Shown piece by piece: positions 2,737 through 20,915 of a DNA stretch of 23,250 bases; the stretch's first letter is position 1; each line of letters begins with the position of its first letter. The stretch spans positions 1-23,250 of IMG/VR virus record IMGVR_UViG_3300050821_014505; one strand, 5' to 3'. The stretch is from a virus. The position numbers were made by a program, and so were the translations under genes. The notes below the pieces were generated by a model. The model saw only the letters and a list, made by a program, of their open reading frames with translations, was not told the DNA's origin and ran no database searches.

Positions 2737-3017
2737 GCTTTCGGCGCGGCCGGCGGCTGCACGACTGGCGCAGTCACCCCAATCTGCTCAATGGCGGCCA
2801 GAAGGTCGGCAATCAGTGGCTCAAGCAACTGAGGCTGAGCGACAGCCACTTTGACGAGCGCCGGGCCCGCCGCGGAAATCAGCCCTGCTTTCGTGGGGTT
2901 GGTCAGTACGCCAATGACGACGCCTTCGAGAGCCGGCGCCACCACCTGCATCTCCTCAGGACCGAGCTGACCCAGCGGCCCCTTCAACTGAGCCGCGAGT
3001 GAAGTGAAAAAGTTCAT
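2733..3017 (-). CDS. Hypothetical protein in lysis cassette (94 aa)
   Basis: It begins at ATG, overlapping the upstream stop as ATGA, and its own stop overlaps the next GTG as GTGA, so it is coupled on both sides. The product opens MNFFTSLAAQLKGPLGQLGP. It has a moderately hydrophobic, Ala/Val/Leu-rich middle (residues 23-60) and ends in a Pro/Ala-rich tail (VVQPPAAPKA). The hydrophobic part is not a clear transmembrane helix. I do not recognise the family. Its place after a holin-like gene and before a papain-fold protein suggests a lysis or envelope role, but nothing in the sequence proves this. Confidence 0.6.
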   Translation of the reverse strand: MNFFTSLAAQLKGPLGQLGPEEMQVVAPALEGVVIGVLTNPTKAGLISAAGPALVKVAVAQPQLLEPLIADLLAAIEQIGVTAPVVQPPAAPKA

Positions 3018-3292
3018 GTAGATTTACCTTGTGGAGTCTGTGAGTTGGCGACGTCTGCTTTGGCCTGGCTCGAAACGACCTCAGGATTGTTCTTAGTCAC
3101 TCTCGCGTGAATCGCCCAGCCAGCATAGGCCATGGCCGCGAGCTGAAGGATGTCATCAACGAGCTGAGCTAAGTCCACGCCCGCAAAGAACTTCGAGAGG
3201 TGCGTGAGAGCTAGAATCTGGATGAGGATGGATAGCGCGAGGCGCCGGATGACCGTCGACTGGTACCACGGAATCGCCGCTTGAGTCTCCAT
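3014..3292 (-). CDS. Holin-like small membrane protein (92 aa)
   Basis: It starts at ATG behind a strong GGAGGGG site. The N-terminus (PWYQSTVIRRLALSILIQIL) leads into a first hydrophobic helix at about residues 15-33. A short Asp-containing turn (VDLAQLVDDI) follows, then a second hydrophobic segment (LQLAAMAYAGWAIHARV) and a charged cytoplasmic-type tail. This 'WYxSxxxxxxL' start, followed by two membrane helices and an Arg-rich end, matches small proteins annotated as phage holins or holin-like in similar lysis cassettes. It lies 33 bases downstream of the lysozyme gene. Holin function is inferred from topology and context only; the XhlA-like protein upstream is a competing candidate. Confidence 0.6.
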   Translation of the reverse strand: METQAAIPWYQSTVIRRLALSILIQILALTHLSKFFAGVDLAQLVDDILQLAAMAYAGWAIHARVTKNNPEVVSSQAKADVANSQTPQGKST

Positions 3293-3325
3293 CGCCCCTC
3301 CCGCCTGCCGAGATGAGGCTGTAGT

Positions 3326-3754
3326 CTATGACAGGAACAATGCTTTTTCGATAGCTCTGCGGCGCTCCAGACCAGGGTCCTCAACCCCGCGCACCTTGTC
3401 CCAGACGGCGAACTGAATAACGGCGTCCTGGGCATCGTTGGCGTTCAGGTCGCGCACCAGAGTCGATTTCTCGAAAGCATCGACACCGATATTGAAGCAC
3501 AGCATCACGAGAGCATCGAACTGATGCTGGGTGAGTGCGATTTTCACCGACCTAGTGACAGATTGCTCACGAGGAGCCACGTCTGACGCCAGCCATATCT
3601 GGGCCTGAAGCAGGCTGTAGCGCTTTCCGATAACAACGTCCTTGCCTGTGTGTCCGTAACCGGCTGTCGGCACGCCACCATCATCAAGATACCCGACTAA
3701 TTCGAGTTTCTCGCAGAAGCAGAGGATGGCGAGCCCGAGGGGCGAGAGCTTCAC
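3326..3754 (-). CDS. Endolysin, T4-type lysozyme (GH24)
   Basis: This enzyme is predicted to cut the MurNAc-GlcNAc bond of peptidoglycan. From the GTG start (GTGA overlap with the upstream stop) the product has 142 residues. The catalytic triad of phage T4-type lysozymes is present with exact spacing: Glu15, Asp24 and Thr30 (E-x8-D-x5-T) in CEKLELVGYLDDGGVPTAGY, followed by GHT. The second lobe has LTQHQFDALVMLCFNIG and a C-terminal GLERRRAIEKALFL, both typical of the family. There is no signal or SAR segment, so export should depend on a holin. An in-frame ATG at 3817 exists, but it would lie inside the upstream gene and add residues before the conserved start, so I prefer GTG. Confidence 0.9.
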   Translation of the reverse strand: MKLSPLGLAILCFCEKLELVGYLDDGGVPTAGYGHTGKDVVIGKRYSLLQAQIWLASDVAPREQSVTRSVKIALTQHQFDALVMLCFNIGVDAFEKSTLVRDLNANDAQDAVIQFAVWDKVRGVEDPGLERRRAIEKALFLS

Positions 3755-5334: not shown

Positions 5335-5961
5335 CTATGTGTATCGGATGATGGCCAGCCCATCATGGCCCGCGGTGGGGTTTATGTTGGGGCTTGAGCT
5401 CCCCCCCATGCCCCCGTTCGTCCCCGTCCCGTTGATGCCGACCGTGCCGGTCGCGCCCGGTCCTCCGGCCTGTCCCGGGCCATTACCGGAAGTGCCCGTC
5501 CCGCCCGTCGTATTGGCTGCATTGCCCCCAGCGGCCCCGCCTCCGGCCCCTCCGGCCCCTCCGCCGGCATTGCTCGCCACTCCACCGGACCCCCCATTCG
5601 CAGTCATGGTCGTGATGCTGAAAGTGCCACTGCTGATGGATGAGGCGCCCCCGTTTCCACCGTTTGTGGGGGATGCGCTGTTTACACCTGCGGCTCCCGC
5701 GGCTCCGATCACAATAGCTAATGTCTTGTTGCCACTGCCCACTACGGATATGGAGGACCGGCTATACCCTCCCGCGCCGCCGCCACCTCCACCTCCTGTA
5801 TTGGTCCCGCCGCCTCCCGCCGCCGCTCCCCAGACCTCCATAACGGCAGTACTTGAGTTAGGAGGTATTGTTTCTGTGTGTGACCCAGCGGCGTTGAATG
5901 TATGAGTTACAGGAGTAAAAGTACTATTTGACCCAAGAAACACATTCAAAATACCCGTCAT
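5335..5961 (-). CDS. Glycine-rich tail tip/adhesin-like protein
   Basis: The 208-residue product starts at ATG, overlapping the tail-fiber stop as ATGA. It has a short beta start (SNSTFTPVTHTFNAAGSHTE), then 'VMEVWGAAAGGGGTNTGGGG' and many Gly-Gly-x repeats with Ala/Asn/Ser. It ends in a conserved-looking strand, GHDGLAIIRYT. This matches glycine-rich phage proteins with a W-G-(A)GGGG entry and a G-x-I-RY(T) exit, whose Gly-rich loops form polyglycine-II-like sandwiches on tail fibers or adhesins. Its position just after the fiber gene suggests it binds the fiber tip and contacts the host. The long plus-strand frame opposite it is a compositional shadow. Confidence 0.7.
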   Translation of the reverse strand: MTGILNVFLGSNSTFTPVTHTFNAAGSHTETIPPNSSTAVMEVWGAAAGGGGTNTGGGGGGGAGGYSRSSISVVGSGNKTLAIVIGAAGAAGVNSASPTNGGNGGASSISSGTFSITTMTANGGSGGVASNAGGGAGGAGGGAAGGNAANTTGGTGTSGNGPGQAGGPGATGTVGINGTGTNGGMGGSSSPNINPTAGHDGLAIIRYT

Positions 5962-6902
5962 GTCAATCCCGAACCACTGATTAGGAATGCGCTCGATGTC
6001 AAGGCAACAACCGTCGCAATTCCAAGGCTAGTTAGAGTCCTATTTCCAGACGAAACTCCGCCGATTGCCCAAAAAATAGTCACCCCAGACCCTTGGGCAA
6101 TGGTAAATGCATTGGTGCCGTTATTTGCGATGATGGTGAACACGTCCCCTGCAGAGAATACAGAGTTTGGTATCGTCAAAGTCTGTCCAGCGGACCCTGT
6201 CAAAACTATAGACTTTCCCCTATCGGAAGTCTGTGCAATATAGTTGCTACTCTGTTGGTTGAATGGAGTTCCCTTGTACCCCAACTCAAGCAAGTTACCT
6301 GCACCGTCATTTCCCTGGACTACGCCGGCGCCATTGACTTCGAAAAATCCGGCAGATCCACTTTGATTCGTACAGAAAATTCCAAAATCTGCGCTTGTTG
6401 TTCCCGCCGCGATCCTTAGTCCAAGTGACTGGCCAGATGTAGAGCTTCCGATTATTGATAATGAGTTGCTATTGGCAGCGCCGTTTACAGTAAGGCCCAC
6501 GCCAGAAGTGGGTGCGCTGATAACAACTGCGCCAGTCCCGCCTATCGTGAGGCGGGAATTTCCTCCGGTCGAAAAACCAATCTGCTGTGCAGTGGAAAGA
6601 GAAAATGCCACTCCCGTCGCGTCTGCAACAGAGAACGTGAGCGCGGGATTGTTCGACCCACCAGTGCGCCCCCAGATAGAAATGTTTCCATCAGTGCCAC
6701 GAGTTAGGTTTAGCTGCTGCTTCCAATTGAGGGTGGCGTTTGGGATGTTTTGCCCGTCAATCGTCAGGCAATTCTGTATTCCCGAAGCGAAGTCGTTGTC
6801 CTCCAAATCGAACTTTGTGGAGGAAATAGGCAGTCCCGAGTTGGCATCATTACCCCAGCTTGGATATGCGCGCGTGTATGTTCCACTACCGTTCCAGGGC
6901 AC
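5958..6902 (-). CDS. Tail fiber-like protein
   Basis: The start is GTG at 6902 with GGTGA close upstream. The 314-residue protein opens PWNGSGTYTRAYPSWGNDAN and continues with PISSTKFDLEDNDFASGIQN. This N-terminal signature is shared by many podovirus tail fibers, and I take it as the virion-attachment part. The rest is beta-rich and Ser/Thr/Gly/Asn-rich with repeating short strands (LTFSVADATG, LTVNGAANSNSLSI, GKSIVLTGSAGQTLTI), as expected for a trimeric fibrous shaft. The end has AFLISGSGLT. No depolymerase or S74 domain is visible here. It is followed directly by the glycine-rich gene, which may supply the tip. Confidence 0.75.
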   Translation of the reverse strand: MPWNGSGTYTRAYPSWGNDANSGLPISSTKFDLEDNDFASGIQNCLTIDGQNIPNATLNWKQQLNLTRGTDGNISIWGRTGGSNNPALTFSVADATGVAFSLSTAQQIGFSTGGNSRLTIGGTGAVVISAPTSGVGLTVNGAANSNSLSIIGSSTSGQSLGLRIAAGTTSADFGIFCTNQSGSAGFFEVNGAGVVQGNDGAGNLLELGYKGTPFNQQSSNYIAQTSDRGKSIVLTGSAGQTLTIPNSVFSAGDVFTIIANNGTNAFTIAQGSGVTIFWAIGGVSSGNRTLTSLGIATVVALTSSAFLISGSGLT

Positions 6903-6909
6903 GAGTCAC

Positions 6910-8430
6910 CTATTGAGAGTTGATATCGTTGACCGCGCCGGCCGCGACAGTGGGGCGGGCGAGAGCGCGAGCGAGCGAGGCTGCGCGCGAAGGCGCGACA
7001 GCGGGGCGAGCTCCGGCTTGTCCCGCTCCGCTGAGTAAGTACGATCGCGCCCCATATCGAGCGGCAGGCCAAGCGGCTCCCGCAACGAGGCCCGCGGGCC
7101 CGAGCGCATGCTCACCGACACCGGCGCCGAGCAGCGTCCCGAACGTATCCAGGTGGTGAATATTGCTCGAGTTCGCCGGTAGATTGGCCTTGGGGAAATT
7201 CACGGCGTGCTCAGCAGAAAGCAGCATACCCCCTGATAGCGGCTCGCCGCGGCGCCACGCAGCTGCCAACTTAATGCCCGAGACGTTGCCGTTTGCGTCC
7301 ATGGCATCCTCGATGGTCGAGGCCTTGGCGTAGGTCTGCCGAGCCTGTCTCATCGCCTGCACGAGATCGGTATACGCCCCGCCAGAGCTTTGCGCGCCCC
7401 GCTCCAGCTGGCTCTCGATGGCGCTGGACACGCCCTTGTAGGCCATCCCGAGCTCGCTATTACCCTGCCTATACGCGTCGCTCGCCTTGCCGCGCAGCAG
7501 CTTGATGGCGGACACCGCCGAGTCACCGGTGAAGTTTGGCTGCAGGTAGGTATCCACGATGCGTTCGACATCGGGATTGGCCGATCCTGGGAAGGACGCA
7601 TTCGAGCCGCGCGTTTCCTTCAGTACCGATGACAGATCGTTCACATATTGGTCGTCTGTCGTGACCGTAGGGATGCCGCGCGCAGCCTCGAACCCCTGGC
7701 CCGCCTCCTTCTTTACCGCCGCCACGGCCTCGGGCGTGAACACTTCTGGCTTCAGTCCGAGGTCCTGCGCCGCGAGTTCGTTGCGCGCGTTCTGGTTGAT
7801 AACGCGCGCCTGGTTTTGCGTCGATTCTTTGCCAGCCACTGTCTCCAGTGCTCGGTTTCCAAGGGCCGGGTTGGTCGTGGATGGCGGCACTACAAAACCA
7901 GCGTCCTGAGCTTCCTTCAAGGACTGCGCGAGCCGCTGCGCCTTCTGCTGATCAGGAGTCATGAAGTTGGCAGGCGCTTTCGCGCCGGGTATTGGCACCT
8001 GTGGCATCATCGCCCCGCCTTCCATGCCGAGCCCTACGCTCATGACCTTCTCTGCCGCCGTCTGTGGCTGGGGCAAATAGGGGTTGAGCGCACGCGAAAA
8101 CTGCTGAGACGGCGCGCTCGGGTCTGGCGTGAGCCATTGGCTCGGATGCTTCATCTGCTCCCAGGTTGCGGAGCGGGCCTGGGGATCGGTGGCGAGCGAG
8201 TACAGGCTATGGCCGACGTCGGCAACTTGGGCGGGAAGGCCGACCGCGCCCTCTATCAATGCTCGAGCAGAGAGGCCCGCACCTCGCTCCAATTGATGAG
8301 CGATGGATGGCGTTTCGGCCTGGGCCTGCTCGGAAGCGGGCTTCTGGATGAGATCCGCGTACGCATTGGCGCCCGCGGCCGGAGGGGCTTCAAGCTGAGT
8401 CACGTTGATCAGATCATCGTAGGCGCCCAT
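6910..8430 (-). CDS. Putative internal virion/ejection protein (506 aa)
   Basis: It starts at ATG within a TAATG junction with the upstream gene. The product begins MGAYDDLINVTQLEAPPAAG and is Ala/Gln-rich and mostly helical. One segment is GLSARALIEGAVGLPAQVAD. Another long helical portion holds AVSAIKLLRGKASDAYRQGN. The C-terminal region is Gly/Ala-rich with moderately hydrophobic stretches (TLLGAGVGEHALGPAGLVAG) and a basic end. Large helical Ala/Gln-rich proteins between the tail hub and fiber genes of short-tailed phages are often internal (ejected) virion proteins that help DNA cross the envelope. That role is inferred from position and composition; I see no enzymatic motif. Confidence 0.65.
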   Translation of the reverse strand: MGAYDDLINVTQLEAPPAAGANAYADLIQKPASEQAQAETPSIAHQLERGAGLSARALIEGAVGLPAQVADVGHSLYSLATDPQARSATWEQMKHPSQWLTPDPSAPSQQFSRALNPYLPQPQTAAEKVMSVGLGMEGGAMMPQVPIPGAKAPANFMTPDQQKAQRLAQSLKEAQDAGFVVPPSTTNPALGNRALETVAGKESTQNQARVINQNARNELAAQDLGLKPEVFTPEAVAAVKKEAGQGFEAARGIPTVTTDDQYVNDLSSVLKETRGSNASFPGSANPDVERIVDTYLQPNFTGDSAVSAIKLLRGKASDAYRQGNSELGMAYKGVSSAIESQLERGAQSSGGAYTDLVQAMRQARQTYAKASTIEDAMDANGNVSGIKLAAAWRRGEPLSGGMLLSAEHAVNFPKANLPANSSNIHHLDTFGTLLGAGVGEHALGPAGLVAGAAWPAARYGARSYLLSGAGQAGARPAVAPSRAASLARALARPTVAAGAVNDINSQ

Positions 8431-15194: not shown

Positions 15195-16042
15195 CAGGCA
15201 TCTTCCTTAGCCTCGGCAGACTCGACGATATCGCGCGTGCGCTTAGAGGTTTTCACTGACGCCGTCTTGAGAGGCTGAGGCGCTGGAGGAGCGGCGGACT
15301 GCATCATCGGCACCTGTTGCCGCATACCCTGCGCAAACTGCGCCTGCATGTTCACGATAGTCGCCTCTAGCTGCTTGATCTTCTCGTCCTGGAGATTGAC
15401 CTTCTCCTCGGCCCTGGACGCCTTGGCCTGCTCGCTGGCGACGATGCGATTACGAGCACGCTCGTCAACCGCGGCCCGCGCCAGGTCGCGGTACTTGCGT
15501 CCGCCCATGATGGCTCCCGCATTGGCGTCGGACAGCGCGGCGAGAGCCTCGACCGTTGGAATGCTAAGCAGCTTCAGGGATTCGGCGTACGAGCGCGTAA
15601 CGACGCCCCATTCCTCGATCGGCCATCCGTCATCCGCTTTCTCGCCGCGGCGCATGAAGCGCGCCCAGGCGTTCGGATATTTCGCTGTGTCCGGTCGATC
15701 GCCATTGGCGCACTGCTGCAGCACTTCCCAAGTGGTGTGGTATTCGCCTGACTCGGGATCGATCGCAGTGTCGTACTCGATCCCGGAGGCCAGGGTATCC
15801 CAGACGGTCTTAGAGTTTCCCGGAGCAACGATGCGCACCCAGATCCGATCCTGAAAGATCGGAAATCCCATGCTCTCCGTGAGGTACTCCATCGGATACG
15901 GCTTGATGTAGAACTCAACAATCAACTCGCCGTCGAGACCCGCTCCGCCCTCTCCAGAACGGCCATAAAGCACCCTACTCGAGTCGGCCTTGGGACTTTC
16001 GAGCATGCGCGGTGGCGCGAACTGGGGTAGATCGATACTCAT
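15194..16042 (-). CDS. Conserved phage protein with C-terminal coiled coil (282 aa)
   Basis: The chosen start is ATG at 16042, which overlaps the upstream stop as ATGA; a longer start at 16057 lies inside the enzyme gene. The product begins MSIDLPQFAPPRMLESPKAD. A beta-rich part has GELIVEFYIKPYPMEYLTES and IFQDRIWVRIVAPGN, then WARFMRRGEKADDGWPIEEW. Residues about 200-245 form a charged coiled coil (EEKVNLQDEKIKQLEATIVN). The tail is Pro/Ala-rich and then basic (KTASVKTSKRTRD). I recognise the pattern as a protein often found near the adaptor in podovirus genomes, without known function. A connector or assembly role is inferred. Confidence 0.65.
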   Translation of the reverse strand: MSIDLPQFAPPRMLESPKADSSRVLYGRSGEGGAGLDGELIVEFYIKPYPMEYLTESMGFPIFQDRIWVRIVAPGNSKTVWDTLASGIEYDTAIDPESGEYHTTWEVLQQCANGDRPDTAKYPNAWARFMRRGEKADDGWPIEEWGVVTRSYAESLKLLSIPTVEALAALSDANAGAIMGGRKYRDLARAAVDERARNRIVASEQAKASRAEEKVNLQDEKIKQLEATIVNMQAQFAQGMRQQVPMMQSAAPPAPQPLKTASVKTSKRTRDIVESAEAKEDA

Positions 16043-17970
16043 AGTGATTGTCTCCAACAGAAGTTTGCGCCAACCTCGACCTCTCCAAACACTTCCTCGA
16101 CCGCGCGCTTGACGCCAAACTGAGGATAGTCCGGGTTGTCGTAGTCATGTCCTGAAATGAAGCCGCCCGGTTTTATCTTCGGCAGCCACGCCTTGATATC
16201 CGCTAGGCAGCATTCGTAGGAGTGGTCTGCATCAATAAAAACGAAGTCCAGTGACTCGTCTGCCACATCTTGCGCCGCCTCCAATGAAGTCATTCGCCAA
16301 ACAGATGCGCGGTCTCCGGCGAATCGAACTGCCCCTACTGCGGACTGGCAATAGCCATCCTGCTCGTCCTGATTGAGAGAGCTATGGAAGTCACCAAGAC
16401 CGTCCTCGCCCTTACCGGCCGCCCAAGGATCTACCATCAACAACTTCATATCGATCCTGTTTAGGAGAAGACGCGACGAGAGCGCGCCGGTGAAGACGCC
16501 AATTTCAGCGCCCACTGGGTGAGATGTATCCTTGAGCCAATGAAGTATCTGCTGGGCGCGCTCATCGACAGATAGTGGCTTCAATAGGGATGCAATATGC
16601 GGTATGAGGCCTTCTCCGAACACGCGAATCGTGCAGCCATTTTCTAGGAGTAGCGGAATATGCTCCTTGAAGTCCTCTGCTTGGGTAACCATCCAGGGGG
16701 CGCAGCGGAATGAGCGACCACCTACGCGCACATCGAGCGTCTTTTCGTCATCATTCAGCGGCTGAGGGTAGGCATGGTGCGCATCTTCCGCGTAACTCGA
16801 GTCGAAACCGAATAGGTCTATGTGGCGGTGGCCGAGCAGGTAGGCGAGGACGATGGCCTTCATCCCGACAGTGGTGCCGCCGCCGATGCTCGGGACGCCG
16901 GCCTTGTCCAGTAGGGGTTGGTAAGACGACAGCGCCGCGTGCCAGCAGACCAGACTATCTCCTGCCATCTGTAGTACCGAAGGATGGCACTGAGAGGCGT
17001 AATACTTTGGGCAAAACTCCCCTATGGGCACGAAATCCAAGTTTTCCCGGCGCGCGTCCAGTAGTACATGAGCGTCCGGGATGATCCCATTACGCCATAG
17101 ATAGTCCCACGTGTTTCCAGTGGCATAGACCTTCGCGCCTGACATCTGCATGCCGCGGATGTAAAACAGGTTGTCGGCTAGACTTGGTCCGCCGCCCACG
17201 ATGATCGCGGTGCGCGTGTCATTGCCGGGCTCGACCCATGCGCAATCCCTCTCCATTGCCGACAGCACATTGGCTCGTAGCTGCTCATCCGGCACGTTGG
17301 ACTGCACGACCCACTCGATCGCCGAGCCGCCGCCGACCTTCCAAACTTCAGGTACCCAACCCGAGGTGACCTCGTGAGGACGCGGGTGTCCATGAAAGAA
17401 AACAACCGATGTTCCACGTGGAATTTGCGTGCGGCAGTCGACTTTGTAGCTGCGGAATTTGCCGGGGAATAGATCCTGTAGCCAGTTAGGGCCTTCATGG
17501 ACACGCTCTATCCATGCTTGGTCACCACCCTCGATTATTGGCTTTCCTGAGTCGATCCAGTTCTGCCAGAACCAATCCGCATCCCCTCCTGGCCCGGCCT
17601 CCCACGCCATGACGCTAGACTGCATGCCCTTCGGTCTGTAGGCATCTCGCAAAACGGCGAAATCACCATCGTACCGCGCGATCTCGTCCAACGGCCCGGT
17701 GATGACCGTGTCGAGATCGAAATACAGTACGCGCTCACCCTCCGGAAATGCCTCCGGCGAGAACAGGTAGAGCTTGTTCCACCATCCCTCAACCCCCTCG
17801 GGTAGAGGCTTGGTTTTGATGCCAGCCTCCAACCCGGTGGGATCATCCGTGAAGCACGTGAAGTCACCCGCGAACCCCGCGGGCAGGTTCCGCCGCACCA
17901 TGTCAAACAGGGTGTTGACATACTCAGGGCCGTACAGCTTGCCCCATTTGACGCAACAAACTCTCAACAT
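16039..17970 (-). CDS. Glycosyltransferase-DUF115-methyltransferase fusion (643 aa)
   Basis: The best start is ATG at 17970, with GGAG seven bases upstream. Domain 1 (residues 1 to about 230) resembles a nucleotide-sugar glycosyltransferase: NLPAGFAGDFTCFTDDP, WWNKLYLFSPEAF, and VLYFDLDTVITGPLDE with a DxD motif at 85-87, plus FFHGHPRP near 191-198. Domain 2 (about 254-460) matches DUF115/MptE-like proteins: TAIIVGGGPSLADNL, VYATGNTWDYLWRNGIIPDA, SIGGGTTVGMKAIVLAYLLG and HIDLFGFDSSY. Domain 3 (about 485-643) is a class I SAM methyltransferase of the Methyltransf_24 type: VGAEIGVFTGALSSRLL, LLMVDPW, LDFVFIDADHSYECC and PGGFISGHDYDN. It lies between capsid and connector genes. The target is unknown: virion protein, DNA or host glycan. 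Confidence 0.8.
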   Translation of the reverse strand: MLRVCCVKWGKLYGPEYVNTLFDMVRRNLPAGFAGDFTCFTDDPTGLEAGIKTKPLPEGVEGWWNKLYLFSPEAFPEGERVLYFDLDTVITGPLDEIARYDGDFAVLRDAYRPKGMQSSVMAWEAGPGGDADWFWQNWIDSGKPIIEGGDQAWIERVHEGPNWLQDLFPGKFRSYKVDCRTQIPRGTSVVFFHGHPRPHEVTSGWVPEVWKVGGGSAIEWVVQSNVPDEQLRANVLSAMERDCAWVEPGNDTRTAIIVGGGPSLADNLFYIRGMQMSGAKVYATGNTWDYLWRNGIIPDAHVLLDARRENLDFVPIGEFCPKYYASQCHPSVLQMAGDSLVCWHAALSSYQPLLDKAGVPSIGGGTTVGMKAIVLAYLLGHRHIDLFGFDSSYAEDAHHAYPQPLNDDEKTLDVRVGGRSFRCAPWMVTQAEDFKEHIPLLLENGCTIRVFGEGLIPHIASLLKPLSVDERAQQILHWLKDTSHPVGAEIGVFTGALSSRLLLNRIDMKLLMVDPWAAGKGEDGLGDFHSSLNQDEQDGYCQSAVGAVRFAGDRASVWRMTSLEAAQDVADESLDFVFIDADHSYECCLADIKAWLPKIKPGGFISGHDYDNPDYPQFGVKRAVEEVFGEVEVGANFCWRQSL

Positions 17971-18398
17971 ATAAATTCTCCAATGCCTAGGTGCTTTCTG
18001 GATCTTCTTCTGGAGCATTGGATACAGCACCGCCTGCCAGCATAAAATGCTGTGTTTTCCTCATCCATAGCATGCCCATGCTTGCAATGACTCTGCGGAT
18101 TTGAACTCCTTTGCAAGTTAATGGATGGTCCAGTACCTCTCTGAAAATTTACCCTCTGAGGCACCGCTTCAAGATGCTCTGGATTTACGCAGTTTCTGAC
18201 GTGGCACAAATGGTCAATGACCAATGACCTATCTATCGATTGCAGATTGTGATGCATGCGATAAGCGAAGCGATGAGCGTATTCATTCTCCTGACGCTCG
18301 TTCCTAACTTTCCCGTATCCATTCTGGGAAATGGCGCCTTTCCATAGAACGCATCCCGAAGGGTCAGTGATGCATCGCTTCGCGAATCGCTCAATCAC
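17964..18398 (-). CDS. HNH homing endonuclease
   Basis: It begins at GTG directly after the TGA of the accessory protein gene and overlaps the next start by seven bases. The 144-residue product has the HNH_3-type layout: an N-terminal GCVLWKGAISQNGYGKV, AHRFAYRMHH, and then the nuclease core IDHLCHVRNCVNPEHLEAV with Asp62-His63, Asn72 and His75 as the metal/catalytic residues. Cysteines 65 and 70 are likely structural. A C-terminal zinc-knuckle-like segment is HCKHGHAMDEEN followed by RRCCIQCSRRR. Such proteins nick or cut a conserved site and promote their own spread. The region looks less GC-rich than its neighbours, consistent with acquisition. It is free-standing, since no intron or intein split is seen around it. 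Confidence 0.9.
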   Translation of the reverse strand: MIERFAKRCITDPSGCVLWKGAISQNGYGKVRNERQENEYAHRFAYRMHHNLQSIDRSLVIDHLCHVRNCVNPEHLEAVPQRVNFQRGTGPSINLQRSSNPQSHCKHGHAMDEENTAFYAGRRCCIQCSRRRSRKHLGIGEFIC

Positions 18399-19206: not shown

Positions 19207-19994
19207 TTAAGCGGCCAGGAGGCCCTGGAGGAAGCGATTGCTCGTGGTCATGTTGCCGGCGAACCCGACGAGCTTGACCATCGCGTCCTGGTTGACCGCG
19301 AAACGCTCATCCCCCAGCGGGGCGAAGTTTCGATCCTGGTGTGGCCGGAAGAACAGGTATTTCGTGTTCAAGAAGAACATCGTGTTCACTGGCGCCCCGC
19401 CGCCGAAACCGCCATCCAGTACCACGTCGCAGTTCATGTACTTCAACGTCTGGAAGCCGAGCTCTGCCATGTCCTCATCGCCGATGCGCTGGAGGGCCTG
19501 CAAGCTCTCCAAGTAGTAGCGATAGAAGTTGTTATCGGCAACGATCAGGTCCGGCGCATCCGCACCGCGCACCAACTGCAGGTAAACGCGGTTCATGTAG
19601 GTCTGAATGGTGGCAGTACTCACCGCCGCGCCACCAGTGGTCAGGCCGCTGAAGAATACGTTGCGCCAGAACTGCCAGACCGATGGATCTATACCGCCAA
19701 CAATGCCCGACGAAGGTGTCGCGGAGACAAGCAGCTGCAGGCCACCAATCTGCCGCCCGCCATCAGCAGTACCATTTGAGTAGATGTCGAGAGCGACGTT
19801 GTTTGTGAGGGTCTGCTCGGCGTTCTCGATGCGCCCTTCCAGCAGATCGATGATCGCCTCTTCGCCAGAGTTCTGCAGCATCTCAAGGCCTGAGATGGAG
19901 ACGGCGACAGCGGCCTGAGCATAGTTGTACTCAGCACCCGTGAATACGTCGGACGGGCTAATGTTCAGAACCTCGTACCCGGAATAGCGCTTAT
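19207..19994 (-). CDS. Major capsid protein, exon 2 (residues 66-327)
   Basis: This is the larger part of the major capsid protein. It begins with the last two bases of codon 66, followed by KRYSGYEVLNISPSDVFTGA, AVAVSISGLEMLQNSGEEAI and a long run typical of a podovirus HK97-like capsid family (FWRNVFFSGLTTGGAAVSTA, LVRGADAPDLIVADNNFYRY, YMNCDVVLDGGFGGGAPVNT, RFAVNQDAMVKLVGFAGNMT). The open frame continues upstream to about 20646, but that part is intron sequence and does not resemble capsid protein. Joining to exon 1 at 20720 restores the expected ENGTYKRYSGYE. The full protein would have 327 residues, a normal size for the family. It assembles the icosahedral shell on the scaffold protein encoded just upstream. 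Confidence 0.88.
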
Positions 19995-20719
19995 CAGTAT
20001 TGTTACGGTAGGTATTTAATGGTACCTTCCGGGTGTGACATTTCTGCACACCTCTGCGTGTTACCACGCAGCTCAGAGCACACCTTCCCTTTCGGGGACT
20101 GCACCTGCTCGTTACACACGCACCGCTTGCGCGGGCTTGGCTCGGTATTGCCCTTCCATCTCTGGAGTGGGGTATCCACCGACTTCGCAGTCTTCTCAAT
20201 TCACACTTAGCGGAGAGAGCATGCCTTCTTTTGAGTATTTCGCCGGTCTGTTTGATGGCGAAGGATTCGTTCGCATCGACAATCACTTCCTGCAGCCTGT
20301 CACAGGTAATCCGAGGTACCAGTTGCACGCGGGCATAGCCATGACCCACAAACCAGCCGTCAAACTCTGCTTCGACACTTTCGGCGGGTTTTACAAGGGA
20401 GATGACTGCTTCAAGAAGAAGATGCCGAGTAGCCGCACCATCTACCGATGGTCCGTAGTCAGCAACGGCGCTTACGACTTTCTGAAAGCCATCCAGCCTT
20501 TCTTCATCGTCAAGAAGGAGCAGGTAGATATCGCAGTTGCCTTTCAAGAGCACATCAGGATGTACAAGAGATACATGGTCGGCGCGCATGGAGACCTGGC
20601 ACTTAGAGCCAAGATCTTTGCGGAGCGTGAGACCATGTGCGAACAAATCAGACTCCTGAAGAAAGAAGAATTTCCGTTAGTTGTGAGTGACCCTATTTCG
20701 GCTTAAGCAGCCACGGCAA
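19995..20719 (-). ncRNA. Group I self-splicing intron in the capsid gene
   Basis: The 725-base segment interrupts the capsid gene between T of codon 66 and the AT that completes it. Its 3' part (19995-20220) carries the P4/P5-type core motif of group I introns, CAATACCGAGCCAAGCCC (20150-20133), preceded by GGG. The motif is nearly identical to that of cyanobacterial tRNA-Leu introns. GNRA hairpins flank it: GACU-GCGA-AGUC (20192-20181), CCGC-GCAA-GCGG (20134-20123) and CUGCGUG-GUAA-CACGCAG (20071-20054). The intron ends in G at 19995, as expected. Exon ACCU|U (20723-20719) can pair with AGGGU (20694-20690), placing a U-G pair at the 5' splice site. The full P3/P7 fold was not worked out. A LAGLIDADG gene lies inside on the other strand. 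Confidence 0.87.
20221..20706 (+). CDS. LAGLIDADG homing endonuclease, antisense inside the intron
   Basis: The 161-residue product has one LAGLIDADG motif, EYFAGLFDGEGFV (residues 5-17), with Glu14 in the metal-binding position. Later parts fit the family fold: YQLHAGIAMTHKPAVKLCFD, FGGFYKG, IYRWSVVSNGAYDFLKAIQP and FFIVKKEQVDIAVAFQEH. One motif at this length implies a homodimer of the I-CreI kind, cutting a roughly palindromic site. I chose ATG at 20221 because it follows GGAGAG and puts the motif at the N-terminus. An ATG at 20035 would translate the intron's catalytic core. The gene is on the plus strand, opposite the capsid gene and the intron, so it cannot be read from the structural transcript. 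The stop is 13 bases inside the 5' splice site. Confidence 0.88.
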   Translation: MPSFEYFAGLFDGEGFVRIDNHFLQPVTGNPRYQLHAGIAMTHKPAVKLCFDTFGGFYKGDDCFKKKMPSSRTIYRWSVVSNGAYDFLKAIQPFFIVKKEQVDIAVAFQEHIRMYKRYMVGAHGDLALRAKIFAERETMCEQIRLLKKEEFPLVVSDPISA

Positions 20720-20915
20720 AGGTGCCGTTTTCCTGATAGTTGAGTTCCTGCACGATCGTCCGACCTCCAGACACGGGCTTAACACGCCCCCGTGCCCTGA
20801 GCCGATACAACAGTGCGTTATTTTTTGTTACGTTATCTGCCAACTTTCCCGTGCGATTACGCAGGGTCGTGGTCACGATTTCCGTCATCGTAGCCGACGG
20901 GTTGATGAGTGCCAT
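20720..20915 (-). CDS. Major capsid protein, exon 1 (residues 1-65)
   Basis: This is the N-terminal arm of the capsid protein. The start is ATG at 20915 behind GGGAG with nine-base spacing; an in-frame ATG at 20963 lies inside the scaffold gene and precedes no conserved sequence. The exon reads MALINPSATMTEIVTTTLRN, ALLYRLRARGRVKPVSGGRT and VQELNYQENGT, then the first base of codon 66 (T at 20720). Without splicing, the frame would run five codons into the intron (FAVAA) and stop at 20703, giving a useless 70-residue peptide. The scaffold gene ends 22 bases upstream of the start. Confidence 0.85.

Follow-up and report, generated by a model that had tools for sequence, protein, structure and literature searches.

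The window (the whole stretch of DNA analysed, a 23,250-base virus record) carries its structural genes on the minus strand. Among them, the major capsid gene, recognised by its match to phrog_9953, is in two pieces separated by a 725-nt insertion (Table 1). The splice junctions were placed by comparison with intronless capsid relatives. Joining the end of exon 1, ...GGCACCT/, to the start of exon 2, /ATAAGCGC..., gives G-T-Y-K-R-Y-S-G-Y, matching those relatives. The original prediction had described positions 20221-20706 as a homing endonuclease encoded antisense to its own intron and host gene; that interval holds the plus-strand endonuclease reading frame, and the minus-strand intron around it is larger.

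Table 1. Features of the interrupted capsid gene in the window. A slash marks a splice junction.
Feature	Position	Strand	Basis
Major capsid exon 1 (M1 to the first base of codon Tyr66)	20720..20915	-	phrog_9953 positions 3-66, E 1.7e-19; junction via intronless relatives
Major capsid exon 2	19207..19994	-	phrog_9953 positions 66-327, E 1.1e-100
Group I intron, 725 nt	19995..20719	-	splice T/TTGCC...ATACTG/AT, NGTYKRYSGY restored
Catalytic core P3-P9.1 and 3' end with terminal G	19995..20192	-	five-intron alignment, pair counts
P3, 5' strand	20187-20192	-	five-intron alignment
P7	20106-20110 with 20076-20080	-	five-intron alignment
LAGLIDADG homing endonuclease gene, 161 aa, between 5' splice site and P3 (peripheral part)	20221..20706	+	phrog_5046, homologues, I-CreI-like fold
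Shine-Dalgarno-like GGAGAG, upstream of endonuclease ATG	20212..20217	+	sequence
Terminator-like hairpin ACGGCA-AAGG-TGCCGT with TTTT, after endonuclease stop, across exon 1/intron border	20713..20733	+	hairpin scan

Eighty close capsid relatives were fetched with exon 2, and nearly all were intronless at the window's site. Only one of the 80, L004, had an intron at exactly this position, while L007 and L023 carried other introns. A search with the single endonuclease sequence found no homologues; a profile search with a two-sequence endonuclease alignment yielded three more loci, L225, L226 and L227, all of them same-family introns in capsid genes. Splicing at the junctions restores a conserved capsid motif at two sites, one shared by the window, L004 and L225 and the other, near an N-T-(D/K)-Y motif, shared by L226 and L227. 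In all five cases exon 1 ends in U and the intron ends in G (T/...G/).

The group I core and its strand

The 3' parts of the five introns were aligned, and a 46-pair structure (P3, P4, P5, P6, P6a, P7, P8, P9 and P9.1) was drawn by hand on those same sequences. All 222 of 222 cells were paired, a percentage that is partly so by construction, as the same sequences were drawn and counted; slid controls of the structure gave 31-42% pairing. Twenty-one pairs were changed on both sides, compared with a shuffled mean of 10.3, and 0 of 500 shuffles reached as high a count. This double-change count is stronger evidence for the core than the paired percentage. P3, P4, P5, P6a, P7, P8, P9 and P9.1 paired in 5/5 sequences, P3 and P7 covaried, and P3 occurred as four different sequences, every one fully paired. 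The sequences thus have a P3-P8 core in which P7 and P3 form a pseudoknot, one criterion for a group I intron.

The RNA strand of the core is that of the capsid gene, because only that strand accommodates the GNRA loops, the G-U cells and the terminal G. A core on the plus strand, the finding that the original prediction had named as fatal to it, was ruled out by the covariation, the GNRA loops and the terminal G. Its central claim, that the endonuclease gene lies on the plus strand and the intron core and capsid exons on the minus strand, was borne out by the reading-frame match, the phrog_9953 exons and the five-intron covariation with its 21 double-changed pairs.

RF00028 of Rfam, which is a detection model and not a biological criterion for a group I intron, gave no match to the window, even at E<=10, and none to L225-L227. 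It scored the experimentally spliced capsid intron of LittleE at 30.7, below its cut-off of 50, and matched other introns with antisense endonucleases on the sense strand (L023, 54 bits; L138, 52 bits; L084, 92 bits). The exact core pattern with GAGCA found a match in L004's contig alone. A search for P1, together with folding, gave short guide-sequence candidates that were inconsistent between family members, and a convincing P1 with a U-G wobble was not found. Separately, it was observed that the intron start is complementary to the upstream exon bases and co-varies with them (20713-20728 in the window, with equivalents in L004, L226 and L227). Judged from the sequence, this border complementarity may terminate transcription of the antisense gene or belong to P1, or it may do neither.

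It is very improbable that the capsid gene is simply broken, by a free-standing homing endonuclease cassette or some other insertion, and that its capsid-strand RNA does not self-splice: the absence of an Rfam match to the window and of a consistent P1, and the existence of free-standing relatives of the phrog_5046-like gene in annotated phages, have to be set against an essential capsid gene, codons exactly restored at two sites in five phages, double changes that include P3 and P7, the T/...G/ ends and the splicing in vivo of the analogous LittleE intron (PMC3706429).

The antisense endonuclease gene

The plus-strand reading frame matched phrog_5046 (E 1.7e-24), a family labelled 'HNH endonuclease' in PHROGs, and contains the LAGLIDADG motif YFAGLFDGEGF; Pfam gave no match at E<=0.1. 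The AlphaFold model (pLDDT 85) had I-CreI variants as its best PDB matches (E ~1e-7, TM about 0.65). AGLFDGEG was invariant in the five intron endonucleases, and the model has the LAGLIDADG helix with its acidic residue and the alpha-beta-beta-alpha-beta-beta fold. The enzyme is probably an I-CreI-like homodimer.

The endonuclease frame was intact in 5/5 introns, the copies in L004, L225, L226 and L227 being 32-46% identical to that of the window. Among the five homologues, codon position 3 of the antisense frame differed most (0.56-0.71 versus 0.36-0.48 at positions 1 and 2). Decay of the reading frame, which the original prediction had also held up as a possible refutation, was ruled out by these intact homologues and by the third-position bias of the changes. 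The prediction had further proposed comparing endonuclease orientation in related phages, and the antisense layout of the window was kept in L004, L225, L226 and L227, all in capsid genes. Because five homologues are intact, this layout appears to be a stable, selected feature of the intron family and not a product of degeneration.

Sites equivalent to the Shine-Dalgarno-like sequence were AGGAG in L225 and GAGGAG in L226; those in L004 and L227 were weak. Our own scan found two terminator-like hairpins with TTTT in the 23 kb of the window, including the one after the endonuclease stop, and a stricter built-in terminator scan of the region listed none. The equivalent hairpin in L004, ACGGG...CCCGT followed by TTTT, differs from that of the window by a compensatory change and is likewise made of exon and intron bases. 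A scan for sigma-70-type promoters near the endonuclease gene, on both strands, gave none.

These signals bear on the possibility that the intron splices and the endonuclease is a silent antisense relic, unexpressed or without a role in homing. A gene with no recognisable promoter nearby, lying on the strand opposite a late gene that is probably highly transcribed, would suit such a relic, and in T4 the transcript of segD, antisense beside gene 23, was judged vanishingly low (PMC2988022). The relic is nevertheless unlikely, given five intact homologues with substitutions mostly at third codon positions, conserved LAGLIDADG residues and Shine-Dalgarno-like sites before the starts.

Related introns and published systems

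An antisense endonuclease within a phage intron had been put forward as unusual. This was put too strongly: in mycobacteriophage LittleE (JF937101; Pope et al. 2013), the capsid gene is interrupted by a group I intron that carries the bottom-strand LAGLIDADG gene gp14 and whose splicing was demonstrated by RT-PCR (PMC3706429). The window has the same three elements, a major capsid host gene, a group I core and an opposite-strand gene of phrog_5046 (E 9.8e-40 for gp14, about 1e-39), in a different order: the LittleE core (559-762 of L246) is 5' of the endonuclease gene, and the window core is 3' of it. The P7 segment is GACUA in LittleE and GAGCA in the window, and in a pairwise comparison of gp14 with the window endonuclease the LAGLIDADG motif alone aligned. 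Because the order of core and gene is opposite and the proteins align over the motif only, the two introns appear to have been assembled separately, though they are of one kind.

The statement that antisense endonucleases are known from nuclear rDNA introns was correct, and there both expression and cleavage are established (PMC9548176). The Didymium enzymes I-DirII and I-DsqI are, like that of the window, antisense to ribozyme and host gene; they have their own transcript, and cleavage was shown for I-DsqI. They differ in being His-Cys enzymes of eukaryotic rDNA, with a proposed pol II promoter and spliceosomal introns (PMC9548176, PMC3073962). The td, nrdB and nrdD introns of T4 (I-TevI, II and III) are phage group I introns with homing endonucleases, but those genes are sense and of the GIY-YIG or HNH type, and T4 delays their expression through late promoters and hairpins that sequester the ribosome-binding site (PMC2988022). 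The original prediction had suggested that antisense coding may separate homing from capsid synthesis in time; the promoter scan near the endonuclease gene offered no sigma-70-type candidate for such timing, and in T4 a delay is achieved with sense-encoded enzymes. The 'hidden HNH' insertion of ShiLan was rejected as a case of the same kind, since the authors of that work report nothing that points to a group I intron and describe the endonuclease as out of frame (PMC11855218).

A scan of the collection for a related core gave at least 119 stretches, many of them phage introns. Antisense endonuclease genes with Pfam or PHROGs support were found, among the matches listed, in capsid genes in L004 (phrog_5046, 3.3e-22), L023 (HNH_5, 3.9e-9) and L138 (HNH_5, 4e-12), in another capsid family in L163/L184 (HNH, 6e-7; host assigned via the near-identical L124, phrog_1357) and in a DNA polymerase gene in L084 (phrog_12434, 1.6e-16). 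Ten other antisense reading frames near cores had no matches in PHROGs. At least 18 loci had a sense gene 3' of the core (17 with Pfam or PHROGs matches, two of these below the Pfam curated cut-off, plus L124), and two among the matches listed, L083 and L105, had one 5' of it. Three kinds of intron with antisense genes are inserted in one conserved capsid motif, at Tyr66 (window, L004, L225), Tyr69 (L138) and Tyr72 (L023), three codons apart and in every case following the T of a TAY codon. In L149, two separate group I introns apparently interrupt the capsid gene (about 5900-7620).

Orientation, mobility and interpretation

It is about an even question whether the antisense orientation has any selected meaning of its own, for a cassette might enter an intron loop either way round and persist if the core is spared. 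Both orientations occur in the capsid introns of close relatives: in L007, at 2878-3750, a capsid gene 96% identical to that of the window is interrupted around codon 29 by an intron-like insertion with a sense GIY-YIG-like reading frame. L124 and L163/L184 share a capsid-locus intron, in flanks that are 99.6% identical, and an antisense HNH cassette is present in it in L163/L184 but absent from it in L124; the core is at 6734 in L124 and at 6820 in L184, and L124 has a sense LAGLIDADG reading frame (phrog_11023) 3' of its core. Against an orientation without meaning, orientation tracked position among the matches listed, with 5 antisense and 2 sense genes 5' of the core and 0 antisense and 18 sense genes 3' of it (Fisher p 0.0004, for related loci in a pattern-biased sample whose reading frames were selectively screened). 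That antisense orientation goes with a position 5' of the core is a lead only, and LittleE contradicts it, its antisense gene being 3' of the core. An orientation without meaning is compatible with the reading that we favour.

We consider it most probable, at roughly 85%, that the locus is a mobile group I intron of the capsid gene, with an antisense endonuclease that homes into intronless alleles and a layout kept by selection. The window and L004 are 96% identical in the capsid exon 2 protein, 46% in the endonuclease and 90% in core DNA. The mismatch suggests that the endonuclease part has been exchanged or evolves very fast, and the low endonuclease identity beside the high capsid identity, together with the sporadic presence of the intron, fits mobility. 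From sequence and covariation, the ribozyme at the 3' end of the intron would remove it from the capsid pre-mRNA and so restore the reading frame. The endonuclease would be translated from a separate plus-strand RNA, as suggested by the Shine-Dalgarno-like site and by the terminator-like hairpin that the window has in common with L004. By analogy with its family, the enzyme would then cleave capsid alleles that lack the intron, close to the junction, and repair would copy the intron in.

A broader proposal is that several unrelated lineages of introns and endonucleases have converged on antisense coding as a solution for introns of late capsid genes, with synthesis of the enzyme uncoupled from the capsid mRNA. 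The uncoupling is suggested by the gene's own translation start and also by the terminator-like hairpin that the window and L004 have where exon 1 meets the intron; as a whole the proposal is speculative and we hold it to be rather doubtful.

The layout is not new in kind, the LittleE precedent having been published. What is new is its conservation across an intron family, its recurrence, the position 5' of the core and the clustering of insertion sites, which turn a single published curiosity into a recurring phage gene layout. One capsid family has introns with sense GIY-YIG, antisense LAGLIDADG and antisense HNH genes, and introns free of endonucleases, at clustered sites. The near-identical pair with and without the antisense gene is a natural comparison, and such comparisons make it directly testable when and how antisense intron endonucleases are expressed.

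Two further genes were observed among the structural genes of the window, both on the minus strand. One, at 17964-18398, is a free-standing HNH endonuclease gene (HNH_3, 4.5e-7; phrog_826, 2.5e-37), and the other, at 16039-18030, encodes a 663-aa protein with matches to glycosyltransferase, MptE-like and methyltransferase families.
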